Source of the DNA: an uncultured Lachnospiraceae bacterium
Lineage (GTDB): Bacteria > Bacillota > Clostridia > Lachnospirales > Lachnospiraceae
Direction of reading: 5' to 3'
DNA: 36,455 nucleotides
Assembly (NCBI GenBank): GCA_902781655.1
Contig: CACZJZ010000031.1
Coordinates: 1 to 36,455 of the forward strand
Positions within the stretch are counted from its first letter, which is position 1. Every line of letters begins with the position of its first letter. Shown here piece by piece: positions 29,640 to 36,455 of this stretch. Position numbers and translations under genes: made by a program. Under the pieces are notes generated by a model. It was not told where the DNA came from and ran no database searches. It saw nothing but the letters and a program-made list of their open reading frames with translations.

Positions 29640-32387
29640 ATGGAAGAAAGAAGGTCAAAGACGACAATGGAACATTACATTGTGACAGGCATGACGTGCG
29701 CGTCCTGCCAGGCCCATGTGGAGAAAGCTGTGGCAAAGGTGCCCGGCGTCAAATCGGTCAGCGTCTCCCTGCTGACCAATTCGATGGCTGTGGACGGGAC
29801 GGCATCGGACGAACAGGTGATCAAGGCGGTGGAGGATGCCGGATACGGCGCAAGGCCGCAGGCGGCGGGAGGGAAACCGGCTGGCGCATTCGATGCGGGC
29901 GGATCCGGGCCAGCCGCGTCGGCCAGGCTGGCGGCTGAGGAGGAAGCACTGAAGGACACAGAGACGCCGAAGCTTGTGCGCCGGCTTGAATTGTCCATCG
30001 CTTTTCTGATCCTTCTGATGTATATCACGATGGGCCACAACATGCTGAACTGGCCGCTGCCGGGCTTTCTGGTGCACAACCACCTCGGCCTCGCGCTGAC
30101 CCAGATGCTGCTCGCCCTGACGGTGATGATCATCAACCGGGCGTTCTTTATCTCCGGCTTCAAGTCGCTGTTCCACGGCGCGCCCAACATGGATGCCCTC
30201 GTGGCGCTCGGCTCCAGCGTCTCCTTCGGATGGTCCGTGTATATCTTCTACCGGATGACCTGGATGATCACCGGCGGCGCCGCCAACATGGACCTCATGG
30301 AGCTTTACCACAACGAATTATATTTTGAATCAGCAGCCATGATACCGGCGCTCATCACAGTCGGCAAGACGCTGGAATCCCTGTCGAAGGGACGCACGAC
30401 GGATGCCCTGAAGAATCTGATGAAAATGGCGCCGAAGACCGCGGTGGTGGAACGCGGCGGCAGTGAGGTGACGGTCGGCATCGACGATGTCAGAATCGGC
30501 GATATCTTTGTGGTCAGGCCGGGCGAGGCCATTCCGGTGGATGGCGTGATCGTGGATGGCGAGACAGCGGTGGATGAGTCCGCGCTGACAGGAGAATCCG
30601 TCCCGGTGGATAAAACTGCCGGCGATGCGGTCAGTGCGGCGACAATCAATCAGTCCGGCTTCATCCGGGCGCAGGCGTCGCGCGTGGGAGAGGACACAAC
30701 CTTTTCCCAGATCATTCAGATGGTCTCGGACGCGGCCGCGACCAAGGCGCCGATCGCGCGGATCGCGGACCGCGTGTCGGGTGTGTTTGTGCCCGCCGTG
30801 ATCGCCATTGCGGCGCTGGTCTTCATCTGCTGGCTGTTTGCCGGACAGAACGTCGCCTTCTCGCTCGAGCGGGCCATCACCGTACTTGTCATCTCCTGCC
30901 CCTGCGCCCTTGGCCTCGCGACACCCGTCGCGATCATGGTGGGCAATGGCATGGGCGCCCGCAGCGGCGTGCTCTTCAAGACTTCCGAGGCGCTCGAGAA
31001 CGCAGGCAAAATTCAGCTTGCCGCGCTTGACAAAACTGGTACGATTACGGAAGGAAGGCCGGAGGTCACGGACCTGATTCCCGCGGCGGGCGTCACGGAG
31101 AGTGAGCTTCTCCGCAAAGCGTATGCGCTGGAGAAGAAGAGCGAACATCCTCTTGCGCGGGCGATTGTCGCACATGTGGAGAACCACGCTGGCGCAGCCG
31201 GGGCGGGACAGAGCGGAGATGAAGTCACAGATTTTGCCGCGCTGTCAGGCAACGGGCTGGCGGGAAAGCTGGACGGACATGTGCTGCACGGAGGGTCTGG
31301 GCGGTTCATTGCGACGCTCGCTTCCATCCCGGCAGATCTCGCGGAGAAGGCGGACGCGCTGGCCGAGCAGGGCAGGACACCGCTGTATTTTGAGGAAGAC
31401 GGAAGGCTTCTCGGCATCATCGCCGTGGCCGATGTGATCAAGCCGGATTCCGCGCAGGCGGTAAGGCAGCTGCAGAAGATGGGCATCGAGGTCGTGATGC
31501 TGACCGGAGACAATGCGCGCACGGCGAGAGCCATCGGAAAGCAGGCCGGTGTGGACCGCGTCGTCGCGGGCGTGCTGCCGGACGGAAAGGAAGCGGTCAT
31601 CCGGGAGCTGCAGAAGCGGGGCCGGGTGGCGATGGTCGGAGACGGCATCAATGACGCGCCGGCACTCACCCGGGCGGACACCGGCATCGCGATCGGGGCA
31701 GGCACCGATGTGGCCATTGATTCGGCGGATGTCGTGCTGATGAATTCGAAGCTGACAGATGTCGCGGCGGCGGTGCGGCTGTCCAGGGCGACGCTCCGCA
31801 ACATTCACGAGAATCTGTTCTGGGCCTTTGCCTACAATGTGATTCTCATTCCGGTGGCGGCGGGTATTTACCCGGGGGTTCGGATCAATCCGATGATCGG
31901 CGCGGCGGCCATGGCGCTCTCAAGCTTCACCGTCTGCATGAATGCGCTGAGGCTGAATCTGTTCCGGGTCCATGACGACTCTCACGACAGACCGCTCCGT
32001 CACAGGGCGCTGCCGGAGGAGCGCCGTCTGGAAACAGAGAAGAGACCGGCAGAGGAAGCAGCGGCAACGGGAGCAGAGGCAGCGGAAGCAACCATGGCGG
32101 AAGCTGCGGCACCGGGAGCAACCGCAACGGAAACATTGACAGCGGAAACATCGAAGAAAAAAGAGGAGGAAACAACGATGACTAAGACAGCGAAGATCCA
32201 GGGTATGATGTGCGAGCACTGCGAGATGCATGTGAAGAAGGCGCTCGAGGCGCTTGACGGTGTCGAGGGAGCGGTGGTATCCCATGAGAGCGGGACGGCC
32301 GTCATCACCGAGAGCCATGAGGTTCCGGAGGCGGAAATCAAAAAGGCCGTCGAGGACGCAGGGTACGAGTTTGTGAGCCTTTCCTGA
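29640..32387 (+). CDS. copA: Copper-exporting P1B ATPase CopA with C-terminal CopZ-like domain
   Basis: 915 residues from ATG 29640 (GGAAGTG upstream; an in-frame ATG at 29625 is weaker). It pumps Cu(I) out of the cytoplasm. An N-terminal HMA domain carries GMTCASC (Cys20, Cys23). Eight TMs follow, with [11 protein letters not shown] (Cys420, Cys422), DKTGT (Asp464), SEHPLA, TGES and GDGINDAP. After the last TMs (~residue 780) an Ala/Glu-rich low-complexity linker leads to a second HMA domain at ~847-915, with [14 protein letters not shown] (Cys858, Cys861). A C-terminal HMA domain is unusual for CopA. AGGAGG sits 8 nt before the in-frame ATG 32178 that begins this domain, so it looks like a fused copZ gene that may still be translated alone. 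Confidence 0.93.
32164..32180 (+). promoter_or_regulatory. copZ: Internal ribosome binding site and start codon for a CopZ-like product in copA
   Basis: AGGAGG (32164-32169), an 8-nt spacer, and ATG 32178, in frame with copA. Initiation here would give a 69-residue protein beginning [20 protein letters not shown], the size and pattern of CopZ copper chaperones, ending at the copA stop (32387). Confidence 0.55.
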
Positions 32388-32436
32388 GCGATTTGGCGCG
32401 GAACGGGAAAAAAGAAGAGATGGACAGGCGACTGGT

Positions 32437-32556
32437 CAGAAGCCATACCTTGCAGGGAGGCCTGCACCATGGCTTCTGGCGACCGCTCATCATCGAGTAC
32501 GAAGCATGAGACGATGGCGGAGCCGCCGTATGGAATGGGGCAGATTTTATCTGCCC
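32437..32556 (+). ncRNA. Candidate structured RNA element, copy 1 (leader of membrane protein gene)
   Basis: Starts with a strong hairpin: CAGAAGCCAT (32437-32446) with ATGGCTTCTG (32469-32478) and inner TGCAGG/CCTGCA. Bases 32474-32555 align without gaps to 36141-36222 (58 of 82 identical by hand count). The last part is a perfect hairpin GGGCAGAT-TTT-ATCTGCCC (32538-32556). The ribosome binding site of the next gene follows 13 nt later. The element is not coding: mismatches are spread over all codon positions and stops occur. Confidence 0.5.
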
Positions 32557-32585
32557 TATTCGACTGTAATAAGGAGAAGCGGGCG

Positions 32586-33284
32586 ATGCGCAACACGGCA
32601 GAGGGAAACAAAGCAAAGAGCAGAATGCCGGAGATCGGCGAGGCGGTATTTGACATCGGATATCTGTTGTTTGATCTGGTGGCCGCCATCGTATTTTTTG
32701 TGAGGGCGGATGGCCGGACGGTCTTCCTGCTGTACGGCGCACTGGCGCTGATTCTGGGAGGCGGGGATGCGTTTCATCTGCTGCCGCGGGTGTCGAGAGC
32801 GCTGCATGGAACGACGGAGAAGACGGAGTGGCGTCTTGGCCTCGGTCTGGCAGTTTCCTCGGTGACCATGACCGTGTTTTATATTTTGCTGATGTATATC
32901 TGGAAAGCGACATTTCCAGCGATCGCCCTGCCGGCGCCGATTGCCGCGCTTGTCTGGGGGACGGCACTGCTGCGCATCGCGATCTGTCTTTTCCCGCAGA
33001 ACAACTGGTTCCGGAAGGAGGGCAGTCCGCGCTGGTCGCTCTTCCGCAACGCGCCGTTTATCGTGACCGGCGTGTGTCTGGTGGTTCTCTACGTCATGTC
33101 CGGCAATGCCAATGGCTATGGTCTGTGGCGGATGGCCGCCGCGATTCTCATCAGCTTTGGCTGCTATCTTCCCGTGACCATCTGGGCGAAGAAAAGGCCT
33201 AAAATCGGTATGCTCATGATTCCCAAAACCTGCGCCTACATCTGGATGATCGCGATGGGGCTCGGGCTGCTCAGCAAAATCTGA
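32586..33284 (+). CDS. Polytopic membrane protein of unknown function
   Basis: 232 residues from ATG 32586 (AAGGAG 9 nt upstream); an upstream in-frame ATG at 32469 would translate the candidate RNA element and is rejected. About six to seven TM segments are visible: IGYLLFDLVAAIVFFV, VFLLYGALALILGG, LGLAVSSVTMTVFYILLMYI, IAALVWGTALLRIAICLF, FIVTGVCLVVLYVM, MAAAILISFGCYLPVTIW and YIWMIAMGLGLL. A loop GGGDAFHLLPRVSRAL after TM2 is the most distinctive motif. I do not recognise the family. It follows copA by ~200 bp, so it may be co-expressed with the copper genes, but the structured leader suggests separate control. Confidence 0.75.
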   Translation: MRNTAEGNKAKSRMPEIGEAVFDIGYLLFDLVAAIVFFVRADGRTVFLLYGALALILGGGDAFHLLPRVSRALHGTTEKTEWRLGLGLAVSSVTMTVFYILLMYIWKATFPAIALPAPIAALVWGTALLRIAICLFPQNNWFRKEGSPRWSLFRNAPFIVTGVCLVVLYVMSGNANGYGLWRMAAAILISFGCYLPVTIWAKKRPKIGMLMIPKTCAYIWMIAMGLGLLSKI

Positions 33285-33521
33285 GAGGACGGAGGATATC
33301 CTGATATTTATGGCCAACGGTTCCGGATGAATCGTGTGCGGGAATTTTACGATCGTTCCGATGTCTTTTTCGGTGGGGCGGAAATCGGTCTCGCGGAGAA
33401 ACGGAAAGTAAAGTATGATAAGAAGGTAAAAACGACACCGGATAGCCGCAGGGCGTAGAACGTATGATGCGCCTTGCGCGCAGTCGGTGCGGTCAGGGGG
33501 CGAGACAAAGGGAGGGTAAAC

Positions 33522-35372
33522 ATGAGCCGTTATTTCTGTAATCCAGTCAACATGAGCTACCGCTATCAGTTTAATGAGGGGCAGGGAGGCGGCTTCTCTC
33601 TGAACCGTGAGGCGGCGGACCCGTCGATGATTTTGTTCAGGGGGAAGTACTACATTTTTCCGAGCATGACCTGCGGCTTTCTGGTCAGTGAGGATATGGT
33701 GAACTGGCGTCAGGTGCCGCTGAAGAATGTACCGACATATGATTATGCGCCGGATGTGCGCGCGATCGGAGACTGGATGTATTTCTGCGCGAGCCGGCGC
33801 GGGACAATCTGCGATTTCTACCGCACGAAGGATCCGGAGTCCGGGGAGTTCGAGCGGATCCCGGGGACATTCGATTTCTGGGACCCGGATCTGTTTCTGG
33901 ATGATGACGGGAAACTCTATTTCTACTGGGGCTGCAGCAATGTCACGCCGATCTGGGGTGTGGAACTCGATCCGGAGACGATGCACCGGATCGGGGAGCC
34001 GAAGGTTCTCATCGGCGACAGCCATGACCGGCTGGGGTATGAGCGGATCGGAGAGGATCATCATCACCAGGCGGGAAGCGGCGCGGTCTTCAAAATCATG
34101 CAGACCATGATCGCGAAGCAGACAGGGTTGGAGCCGTCTCAGGTGACGGTGGAGATGGTGGAGAAGGCGCTTGAGGCGCTGCCGCCGGAGCAGCAGGAGA
34201 TGGCGAAGGCAGCCTTGTCGGATGCTCCCTATATCGAGGGGGCCTGGATGACAAAATACGAGGGGAAGTATTATCTGCAGTATGCCTGCCCGGGGGCGGA
34301 ATATAATGTCTACGCAGACGGCGTGTACGAGGGAGATTCCCCACTCGGACCGTTCCGGCCGGCGGCGAACAATCCGTTTTCCTACGAGCCGGGCGGATTC
34401 ATGCCCGGCGCTGGACATGGTTCCACCATGCAGGATCGGGAGAGAAGCTGGTGGCACACCGCGACGATGCGGATCTCGGTAAACCACACGTTTGAGCGGC
34501 GCATCGGCATCTGGCCGGCCGGTTTTGACAGGGACGGAGAGCTGTTCTGCAACCAGCGGTACGGAGACTGGCCGACGGACGCCGACAGACTTGCGAAGGA
34601 TCCCTTCGCGGAGCCTGACTGGATGCTGCTTTCCTATGGAAAGCCGGTCACGGCGTCCAGCGAGGAGTGCCCGGAGAAGGCGGCAGCGAACGCGGTCAAT
34701 GAAAATGTGCAGAACTGGTGGAAGGCTGCCGCGGACGACACCGCACAGACGCTGACGGTGGATCTCGGGGAAGACTGCACGGTAAATGCCGTGCAGGTGA
34801 ATTTTGCTGATGATTTTGGCACGGTAAAGGAGCTTCCGGCGGGCGCAAGCGCGCAGGGCGATCCCGGCCGCGGGCGGTATATCGAGGAGCGGGAATTCCG
34901 CACGAGGTGGCTGCTGGAGACGAGTGAGGACGGCGCGCACTATACAGTGCTGGAGGACAAACGGACGGCGGAGACGGATCTGCCGCACGACCTGGTTGTT
35001 CGGGCGGAGGGCGTGAAGGCGCGCTTTGTACGGCTCACCGTGACGGAGCTGCCTTATGGACAGAAGGCCTGCGTGTCGGGACTCCGCGTGTTCGGCCGCG
35101 GAAACGGCGCCGTGCCGGAGAAGGCCACGGCTGTCTCTGCGGTCCGCGATGAGGACCGGATGGGAATGACGGTCTCCTGGAAGGGAAACGGCACCGGATA
35201 TGAGGTGCTCTGGGGGCACGATCCGGAGAAGCTCTATCATGATTACCGCGTGTTCGGCAGAGAAACGGTCGAAATCAGGGCGCTGTCGTCGGACCAGGAC
35301 GCATACTGGGTGCGCGTGGATTCGTTCAATGAAAACGGGATTACCAGAGGCGAGACCATCAAGGCTGACTGA
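33522..35372 (+). CDS. GH43-family glycosidase with C-terminal carbohydrate-binding-type modules
   Basis: 616 residues from ATG 33522 (GGGAGGGTAAAC upstream), probably a cytoplasmic beta-xylosidase or alpha-L-arabinofuranosidase. The five-bladed propeller's three acidic residues are visible: base Asp33 in EAADPSMILF, pKa modulator Asp121 in FWDPDLFLDDDG, and acid Glu239 in APYIEGAWM. Between blades, residues ~190-232 form a helical insert (MIAKQTGLEPSQVTVEMVEK) not typical of the family. Residues ~370-535 resemble an F5/8-type C (discoidin) module, ending VKARFVRLTVTELPYGQKAC, and the last ~75 residues look like an Fn3-type domain (GMTVSWKGNGTGYEVLWG). There is no signal peptide. The FNR-like regulator follows after 19 nt and may be co-transcribed. 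Confidence 0.85.
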   Translation: MSRYFCNPVNMSYRYQFNEGQGGGFSLNREAADPSMILFRGKYYIFPSMTCGFLVSEDMVNWRQVPLKNVPTYDYAPDVRAIGDWMYFCASRRGTICDFYRTKDPESGEFERIPGTFDFWDPDLFLDDDGKLYFYWGCSNVTPIWGVELDPETMHRIGEPKVLIGDSHDRLGYERIGEDHHHQAGSGAVFKIMQTMIAKQTGLEPSQVTVEMVEKALEALPPEQQEMAKAALSDAPYIEGAWMTKYEGKYYLQYACPGAEYNVYADGVYEGDSPLGPFRPAANNPFSYEPGGFMPGAGHGSTMQDRERSWWHTATMRISVNHTFERRIGIWPAGFDRDGELFCNQRYGDWPTDADRLAKDPFAEPDWMLLSYGKPVTASSEECPEKAAANAVNENVQNWWKAAADDTAQTLTVDLGEDCTVNAVQVNFADDFGTVKELPAGASAQGDPGRGRYIEEREFRTRWLLETSEDGAHYTVLEDKRTAETDLPHDLVVRAEGVKARFVRLTVTELPYGQKACVSGLRVFGRGNGAVPEKATAVSAVRDEDRMGMTVSWKGNGTGYEVLWGHDPEKLYHDYRVFGRETVEIRALSSDQDAYWVRVDSFNENGITRGETIKAD

Positions 35373-35391
35373 TGGATCGGACTGTAAATTT

Positions 35392-36120
35392 ATGAAGGAA
35401 AACAACTGCGCGTGCAGGTTCAGCAATCAGGGCGAATACTGTATTTCCAACATCCGGCTCTTTCGGGATCTGCCGGCAACGATTCAGGAGCAGCTGATCG
35501 GCAAGGCGGTGCACTCTTCTTATGCCAGGGGGAGCTTTCTGGTGGCGAACGGAGACGAGATCCGCTCCGCACTGATCATCCGGAGCGGGAAGGTCAAAAT
35601 CTCCCGCTCCGAGGCCTCCGGGGAAGAGCATATTCTGGATGTGCTGCACGATGGGCAGGCAGTCTGGCACGGAATCTTTCTGAAGGACCATGTCTATCAT
35701 TACGATGTGATCTGCCTGACGGATGTGAAGCTCTGCGAAATTCCGCGGGAGGAGCTGCTCTCTGTGTTTCGGGAGAATCCGCAGGTCACGATGAATCTGA
35801 TCGGCATGCTGAGCACGGAGCTCGATGAGGCGGAGGAGAAGGCACTGCTGCTTTCCATCCGCGAGCCGAAGAAGCGGCTCGCGGAGTTCCTGCTGTATCG
35901 GGACCGCCGCTGCCTCGGCGGAGAAATTCATCTGAAGCTGGAGGACATCGCCGCCTCCGTTAATCTCCGCACCGAGACCGTGAGCCGGAACATCGCGCAG
36001 CTCGCAAGGGACGGGCTGATCGAGCGGAGGGGACGCGGCCGCCTGCGCGTGACGGATCGGGACAGACTGGCGGAGTTTGTCGCACAGCTGACGGAAACAA
36101 GGAAAAAACAGACGGATTGA
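35392..36120 (+). CDS. Crp/Fnr-family regulator with FNR-like cysteines
   Basis: 242 residues from ATG 35392 (weak ribosome binding site; 19 nt after the GH43 stop). An N-terminal cyclic-nucleotide-binding-type beta roll (~25-125) and long dimer helix precede a winged HTH. Its recognition helix LRTETVSRNIAQLARDGLIE has Glu-x-x-Ser-Arg, as in E. coli FNR. N-terminal Cys6, Cys8 and Cys17 (MKENNCACRFSNQGEYC), together with Cys115 in KLCEIPREEL, equivalent to the Cys122-Glu-Ile-Pro of E. coli FNR, make a four-cysteine set suited to an oxygen-labile [4Fe-4S] cluster, though the N-terminal spacing differs from FNR. No cAMP-binding arginine pattern is seen. Likely an anaerobic redox/oxygen sensor; targets unknown. 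Confidence 0.85.
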   Translation: MKENNCACRFSNQGEYCISNIRLFRDLPATIQEQLIGKAVHSSYARGSFLVANGDEIRSALIIRSGKVKISRSEASGEEHILDVLHDGQAVWHGIFLKDHVYHYDVICLTDVKLCEIPREELLSVFRENPQVTMNLIGMLSTELDEAEEKALLLSIREPKKRLAEFLLYRDRRCLGGEIHLKLEDIAASVNLRTETVSRNIAQLARDGLIERRGRGRLRVTDRDRLAEFVAQLTETRKKQTD

Positions 36121-36140
36121 TTGTGCATAAAAGCCGCCGT

Positions 36141-36222
36141 TTCTGGAGACCACTCATCGTCGTATGCGAAGCGCGAGAGGTTTGCGGATTCATCTTGTCG
36201 GGCAGGGCAGGTTTCATCTGCC
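36141..36222 (+). ncRNA. Candidate structured RNA element, copy 2
   Basis: Aligns without gaps to 32474-32555: TTCTGGAGACCACTCATCGT here against TTCTGGCGACCGCTCATCAT there. The distal hairpin is at exactly the same distance (65 nt): GGCAGGT-TTC-ATCTGCC (36206-36222). Here a G-U pair replaces the A-U pair of copy 1. The hairpin is followed by TTGCTTTGTTTTTCTC, so it may act as a terminator. A weaker 5' stem (CAGACGG 36109-36115 with CCG..TCTG 36137-36145) overlaps the end of the regulator gene. Confidence 0.5.
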
Positions 36223-36263
36223 TTGCTTTGTTTTTCTCAATCATATTTGTTTCAATGAAAATT

Positions 36264-36307
36264 GCGGCAAGGAATCCTGTGGTTTTAACCACGGGGGGAA
36301 TTGCCGC
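36264..36307. repeat. Hairpin at the 3' end of the IS200-type transposase
   Basis: Outer arms GCGGCAA (36264-36270) and TTGCCGC (36301-36307), inner arms GTGGTT (36279-36284) and AACCAC (36287-36292). It overlaps the transposase stop. Subterminal hairpins like this are recognised by IS200/IS605 transposases, so this may be the right-end structure. Confidence 0.45.
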
Positions 36308-36455
36308 CCTCATTTTCAGCCCGCATGTACTGGTTCTGAATATAACGCTCTACTATGTCTTTACTCATATTTCCAAGTGTACTCATATAATAACTGTTGG
36401 ACCAGAGATGTCCGCCCCACAATTTCTGATGCTTGATTTCTGGATGCTTCTTGAA
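36285..36455 (-). CDS. tnpA: IS200/IS605-family transposase TnpA, C-terminal part (runs off window)
   Basis: Minus-strand frame from the window edge to TAA at 36285 (56 residues). It reads KLWGGHLWSNSYYMSTLGNM and then SKDIVERYIQNQYMR, the conserved C-terminus of the Y1 HUH transposase (WgghfWspSYfv.TvGnvs.e.v..YIe.Q). The catalytic Tyr and HUH motif lie outside the window or earlier in the protein, so completeness cannot be judged. The tail after IQNQ (YMRAENEGGNSPRG) is encoded by the hairpin region. Confidence 0.88.
   Translation of the reverse strand, partial: FKKHPEIKHQKLWGGHLWSNSYYMSTLGNMSKDIVERYIQNQYMRAENEGGNSPRG

Follow-up and report, generated by a model that had tools for sequence, protein, structure and literature searches.

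Two diverged sequence copies, about 3.7 kb apart, lie within the window (the whole 36,455-nt stretch of Lachnospiraceae DNA that was analysed), and both are old, worn members of a repeat of about 144 nt that we designated W. W is probably a mobile repeat of the non-autonomous kind rather than a gene-specific RNA switch. It is multicopy, intergenic, patchily distributed, structured, tied to terminators and missing at the orthologous sites of relatives, and it has spread in a few gut bacteria, mostly via landing directly after transcription stop signals. A non-autonomous mobile element was the third option offered for the pair in an initial annotation, and the terminator-bound spread and the empty orthologous sites speak in its favour.

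Positions 32474-32555 and 36141-36222 were aligned without a gap, with 58 of 82 identities and 31 of 40 in the first part, exactly as initially counted, and the 9/8/7 split of mismatches over the codon phases was as even as had been stated. The motif described as common to the pair was present, as were the hairpin at +65 and its change from A-U to G-U. As a control, the best partner among 300 random 82-mers from the window reached 52 identities, compared to 58 for the two units, and the next best place for copy 1 in the window gave 38 identities on the forward and 39 on the reverse strand. The motif TTCTGGNGACCNCTCATC, with up to three mismatches, occurred at two places in the window (shuffle mean 0.43; two reached in 4 of 100 shuffles). 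A coding origin was rejected: the open reading frame across copy 1 (32469-33284) is the downstream gene's frame extended upstream, with a likely start at ATG 32586.

The 82-nt unit proved to be the 3' half of W. Lined-up copies contained three modules, namely a long palindrome, the conserved block of the initial annotation and a terminal hairpin; the 82-nt unit corresponds to modules two and three, and copy 1 has module one as well. Copy 1 starts further back, at about 32422, and takes in a long hairpin (about 32435-32480) that had been missed, only the last bases of which fall in the 82-nt unit. On the + strand, stem P1 (GGCG/CGCC) closes a three-way junction with P2 and P3, and hairpin P4 comes after; P2 is the long hairpin, and P3 comprises CCGC, CATCATC, a GA/GA internal loop and GTGC/GCAC. 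A covariance model, R1, was built on five W copies, copy 1 among them. The features in the window are as follows.

32422..32565, + strand: copy 1, whole W element (P1-P4); R1 positions 1-144, 129 bits, E 1.1e-23, copy 1 itself being among the five sequences used to build R1.
32435..32480, + strand: P2 hairpin of copy 1, in the region with a fold z-score of -6.51; mapped by eye from the model alignment.
32483..32520, + strand: P3 hairpin of copy 1, which in the family consensus has a GA/GA internal loop; from the model structure and pair counts.
32530..32564, + strand: P4 hairpin of copy 1, core GGGCAGATTTTATCTGCCC, without a T-run after it.
36128..36232, + strand: copy 2, W element with most of the long hairpin (P2) lost; R1 39.5 bits, E 5.2e-5.
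36150..36187, + strand: P3 hairpin of copy 2, degraded.
36200..36236, + strand: P4 hairpin of copy 2, then TTTGTTTTT, terminator-like.

Copy 1 has a copper-type P-ATPase gene, with HMA and E1-E2 ATPase domains, on one side and, on the other, a membrane-protein-like gene that starts at 32586 and had no Pfam match. Its 3' end lies about 20 nt upstream of the ATG at 32586, just before the ribosome binding site AAGGAG (32571-32576), as initially described. No syntenic counterpart of copy 1 was found; in the relatives, the homologues of the membrane gene that follows copy 1 had no adjoining copper-ATPase match. Copy 2 lies downstream of a gene of the FNR/CRP type, which has a cNMP-binding and a Crp HTH domain and stops at 36120, and beside the end of an IS200-type (Y1) transposase (PF01797, 36330-36452, minus strand), which agrees with the initial description; the Y1 coding end is about 100 nt past the P4 of copy 2, and copy 2 may serve as a present-day terminator for the preceding gene. 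The transposase end as a whole (36259-36455, minus strand) is where the contig stops, and 36259-36330 is 97% identical to a stretch of genome G028 beside a Y1 match.

The sister genome, G006, also carries copy 2, without the IS, and copy 2 is therefore old. In G006 a toxin-antitoxin-like gene pair lies between the FNR-type gene and copy 2, and pflA-like and pflB-like genes follow copy 2 (all named by eye). In the window, an IS200-type element occupies the place after copy 2, and the early suggestion of a displaced downstream gene is thus a reasonable one. The 3' end of the FNR-like gene in the window (36040-36120) matches the 3' end of the PIN-like toxin gene of G006 (L078 1452-2447; gene names by eye). 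Because the tail of the FNR-type gene runs into the end of this toxin-like gene, the toxin-antitoxin-like pair seems to have been deleted in the window, and this deletion seems to have given the FNR-type regulator a new C-terminal tail.

Copies of W were abundant in the genome from which the window derives (G000; 2.76 Mb, 53 contigs), where a search with copy 1 returned 30 rows at E <= 10 and BLAST with a by-eye consensus returned 35 at E <= 0.01, palindromic double rows included. A covariance-model search, which the initial annotation had proposed, recovered many further copies with covarying stems. At E <= 1e-4, R1 returned 14 rows in G000, 34 in G006, 10 in G015 and 8 in G028, and, of the 62 genomes of the genus, had no match in the remaining 58, under strict filters that lose weak matches. 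BLAST with the consensus detected W in five of 61 genomes, the own genome included: the same four, and G011 with one weak row. A pattern scan of named genomes yielded nine stretches, four each in the rumen assemblies RUG409 and RUG10675 and one truncated copy in Porcincola intestinalis, a named species of Lachnospiraceae; the fuller W copies belong to uncultured rumen genomes. Plasmid, phage and viral-contig collections gave no W match with the 144-nt query (two collections) or the exact pattern (the third). No description of W was found among the literature matches listed, in a search covering few of the subscription papers. Some W units are in tandem, and others have lost P2 with the left end kept, as if between two GGCGAC repeats. 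Tandem arrays of P2-P3 or P3-only units were observed at L067 212-449, L295 466-804 (with a period of 91 nt by match spacing) and L301 534-686.

W has a single orientation, in which its 5' end GTGAAGGCG abuts the last T of an intrinsic terminator. Among 34 copies whose left end could be recognised, a set picked by left-end sequence, 32 were preceded by a hairpin and T-run, compared to 55 of 1000 random positions; 33 of these 34 copies had a T at -1, 30 had one at -2 and 31 at -3. The set was drawn from 42 left ends, with one spurious end and seven inner tandem units set apart, and L052 and L081 in it are one locus in two genomes. The association was also assessed in 62 copies for which left-end letters were ignored, some orthologous pairs being included. 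A terminator lay within -60..+40 of the left end in 44 of the 62 copies, and at random positions in 88 of 600. When flanking windows of the same size (60 nt) were compared, a terminator was found in 29 of 62 left flanks and in 4 of 61 right flanks read outwards. This set leaves out inner tandem units and two of 23 new spans (L292, cut by a contig end, and L303, an inner unit). Partial copies that were weaker, for example L044, L048, L055, L092 and L093, are likewise outside it. A left-end terminator was lacking in 18 of the 62 copies, among them both window copies. Under a stricter T-run rule, 24 rows were positive out of 41, a set that included two inner tandem units, compared to 88 of 500 random positions.

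Gene context was assessed at 43 loci with a simple gene caller. The preceding gene was co-directional in 31 of the 41 cases where one was called, and a called frame overlapped the element at 7 of the 43 loci, mostly a neighbour's frame running in. The neighbours are unrelated, including tRNAs (just upstream of the element at L071, L080 and L068), PNPase and copper ATPase genes and, by eye, rpmA/obgE, rpsT/lepA and secA, which argues against a cis-regulatory RNA of one gene type, as initially considered. A stand-alone small RNA, also among the initial options, is unlikely, since most copies begin at the T-run of the preceding gene and this start would leave a promoter no room.

The clearest case of an insertion is a W copy downstream of a PNPase-type gene in G006, for which the own genome provides the empty site: both flanks are 94% identical and meet at one base. 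The own-genome terminator ends CTTTCTTTG and the sequence runs straight on without W, while in G006 there are 124 extra nt, beginning GTGAAGG, immediately after CTTTCTTT of the terminator. No target duplication of at least 3 nt was present at this locus, the sole empty site at nucleotide level. The PNPase-site query gave a partial match in 56 of 62 genomes and R1 had no match at this site in G015 or G028, so that a gain in G006 is the more economical reading compared with several separate losses. In RUG409, a full W copy lies exactly after the rpmA terminator, between rpmA and obgE. This interval was matched in 59 of 62 genomes, and W was absent from it in the 15 relatives read, whose intervals include two that are identical and a few other long ones.

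The left end of W is constant and the right end is ragged. By eye, P4 was complete in 15 of 34 copies and was otherwise cut, absent or replaced by tandem units. The ragged right ends may partly be later deletions; at the PNPase site of G006, the 3' cut of W coincides with the junction. With regard to the features that define MITEs (derivatives of DDE transposons), namely terminal inverted repeats and a target-site duplication, most right ends are not an inverted repeat of the left, and L068 and L074 have GTGAA/TTCAC (by eye). These two G015 copies (L068 1320-1628 and L074 1445-1577) have additional sequence at the 3' end, TTCACACGCAG..., with which the left-end GTGAA can pair; by eye, this pairing would lengthen the closing stem, as in Clostridiales-1 RNA.

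The initial annotation had proposed a structured RNA. A conserved, covarying structure was found, whereas the 82-nt units alone folded little better than shuffles (z-scores of -1.91 and -0.29). Copy 2 with flanks was also unremarkable (-0.91), and the region 32430-32570, which contains copy 1 and the upstream hairpin, gave -6.51. RNAalifold on a plain MAFFT alignment of 13 copies predicted only 20 pairs, three of them with two-sided change. In alignments fitted to R1, which are biased in the model's favour, two-sided compensatory change was present in 40 of 54 pairs for 32 copies (shuffles 20.5) and in 45 of 54 pairs for 63 rows (shuffle mean 29.1; 0 of 500 shuffles). In the 63 rows, 87.1% of cells were paired versus 76.4% when shuffled, and sliding the partners by 1-3 columns brought pairing down to 27-39%. 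The G015 copies have different stem letters and the same layout. For a strand test, in which two antisense rows were dropped from the 63 and the aligner itself favours G-U, P2 and P4 gave 94 G-T versus 49 A-C, P3 without one fixed column gave 37 versus 64, and P2-P4 summed, the one fixed column left out, gave 131 versus 113. The counts for P2 and P4 oppose those for P3, and therefore neither strand is singled out as the folding strand; there was no clear sign of selection on RNA rather than DNA folding.

One-ended single-strand transposition would fit these observations best, because one end of W is fixed and the other ragged. In one-ended HUH/rolling-circle transposons, the other end is loosely defined. 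A helper acting in trans would join the fixed 5' end of W to the single-stranded T-run exposed at the terminator hairpin and, like those transposons, would set the other end loosely. Carriers of W were searched for such a helper and none was found: Y1 transposase, group II maturase and reverse transcriptase were each missing from some. Y1 was found in five of seven carriers, the exceptions being G006 and G087, and in 8 of the 14 non-carriers tested; in the own genome, the fragment next to copy 2 is its sole occurrence. Two of the seven carriers had the group II maturase domain PF08388 and four had the reverse transcriptase domain RVT_1. These absences are soft, because the assemblies are draft (G006 is 93% complete, in 260 contigs) and a single, truncated W copy (L092) was all that was observed in G087.

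It is also conceivable, if unlikely, that W spreads by retroposition of a structured RNA, with a reverse transcriptase that would join an RNA copy to the terminator T-run. Either a group IIC-intron-like route or T-run priming on poly(A)-tailed antisense RNA would leave one fixed and one ragged end, in line with the fixed T-run junction and ragged far end of W, and the covarying stems are in keeping with an RNA. Group IIC introns, too, insert behind hairpins such as gene terminators with short sequence recognition (PMC3898094). Unlike these introns, W is 144 nt long, has no group II intron among its Rfam matches and lacks the maturase domain in five of seven carriers, and a group II intron was rejected as a class for W. 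RVT_1 was absent, moreover, from the draft sister genome with the demonstrated insertion.

Movement of W by a Y1 enzyme (RAYT or IS200-type), as a palindrome of the REP/BIME type with the IS200 beside copy 2 as a possible helper, appears distinctly improbable. Y1 enzymes use single-strand hairpins as substrates and have a fixed left-end target, and W is palindromic, dispersed, tandem and mosaic, with Y1 in most carriers and a Y1 coding end close to copy 2. However, two carriers lack Y1 and more than half of the non-carriers tested have it, copy 2 is present in the sister without the IS, and a W match was found at only one of 13 scanned Y1/maturase loci of carriers, the locus holding copy 2 itself (the scan excludes two further Y1 matches of carriers). 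REP elements with a RAYT/Y1 gene were rejected as a class for W, a Y1 gene in carriers flanked by repeats being the defining feature. REP/BIME elements of the GTAG and CGTC super-families resemble W in being palindromic, extragenic, often clustered and mostly downstream of genes, yet PMC3733652 gives REPs as 20-40 bp hairpins with a 5-13 bp stem and a GTAG/CGTC tag, whereas W is a 144-nt multi-helix element whose carriers share no common Y1 gene.

The Rfam comparison also proposed initially gave no match in the window at gathering thresholds, and a permissive scan of 32380-32600 gave one match (9.7 bits, E 6.1). The view that the pattern belongs to no named family was nearly right: one copy, in another genome, just reaches the cut-off of Clostridiales-1 RNA (RF01699). 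A permissive scan of 13 W loci listed RF01699 in five, all from G015, which contributed seven loci (L074 48.1 bits, L080 44.6, L077 31.4, L071 30.3 and L064 27.0; gathering cut-off 48), and no RF01699 row was listed for the other eight, window copies included. Opposite strands of the matching copies gave no RF01699 row, which argues against a mere hairpin effect. When R1 was run on 28 RF01699 loci, the best match was 18.6 bits, in P2 only (E 0.036), with three weaker rows at E 0.41-0.92. RF01699 is itself patchy and multicopy: it exceeded its cut-off in 11 of 30 genomes and in none of 14 control genomes. G015 alone gave 50 rows, among which a few W copies may be counted, while G085 gave 29 and G057 gave 19; some copies were in tandem. 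RF01699 copies stood behind terminators in 6 of 25 cases (L220, L233 and L238 dropped from the 28 loci) versus 58 of 400 random positions, and so were not especially concentrated there.

A functional regulatory or small RNA family, forming a divergent branch of Clostridiales-1 RNA and kept for a role in the host, would account for the covariation, the shared P1-P4 layout and the RF01699 scores of the five G015 loci. We regard this as quite unlikely, given the patchy distribution (4 of 62 genomes), unrelated neighbours, empty sites and frequent truncation, the failure of R1 to find Clostridiales-1 copies and the absence of a net strand preference in the G-T and A-C counts. That W is a second-chance terminator or insulator arisen in place is scarcely credible: W does stand behind terminators and the P4 of copy 2 has a T-run, but many P4 hairpins have no T-run after them, and one sequence at unrelated loci with empty orthologous sites demands spread.

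Small interspersed repeats are already known in several bacteria. W shares their character in being short, multicopy, mostly intergenic and variable between relatives. The pneumococcal examples are BOX, RUP and SPRITE. Like W, these are small and dispersed, as a rule shorter than 200 bp, and encode no transposase themselves, and BOX is modular, with a variable number of modules and extensive secondary structure (PMC3049150). BOX and RUP, with which W was compared by description, are said there to carry terminal inverted repeats and target duplications, and insertion at the end of a terminator T-run is a feature of W that the available portion of PMC3049150 does not describe for BOX, RUP or SPRITE. 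The precise T-run junction, the fixed 5' and ragged 3' end and the lack of a consistent Y1 or reverse transcriptase partner would suggest that W moves in an unusual way.

The columns 'y n n' in the 2010 paper that named Clostridiales-1 RNA reportedly stand for a candidate RNA that is not cis-regulatory and not a switch. The table row for this RNA reads 'y n n', with Clostridiales and human gut (PMC2864571). By eye, W resembles Clostridiales-1 RNA in its closing stem, long P2 with a CUUG-type loop, P3 with a GA/GA internal loop and P4; several genomes hold both families in multiple and tandem copies. In contrast, W is without the conserved unpaired sequences of RF01699, and RF01699 copies are not specially associated with terminators. 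We treat W as a family in its own right among the small interspersed repeats, one that may have a deep connection to Clostridiales-1. It is a tentative and rather doubtful extension that the two are branches of one superfamily of tiny mobile elements sharing a multi-helix fold, in which W would be the terminator T-run specialist with one fixed end, moved by a mechanism without Y1, group II maturase or recognised reverse transcriptase, and the 'sRNA' of Rfam would be mobile DNA. As a warning, covarying multicopy structures catalogued as candidate RNAs, Clostridiales-1 included, are possibly mobile DNA. At several RF01699 copies (L213-L242), complementarity of the closing stem extends into flanks that differ between copies, and some RF01699 copies have, by eye, TATAAT-like letters just upstream.
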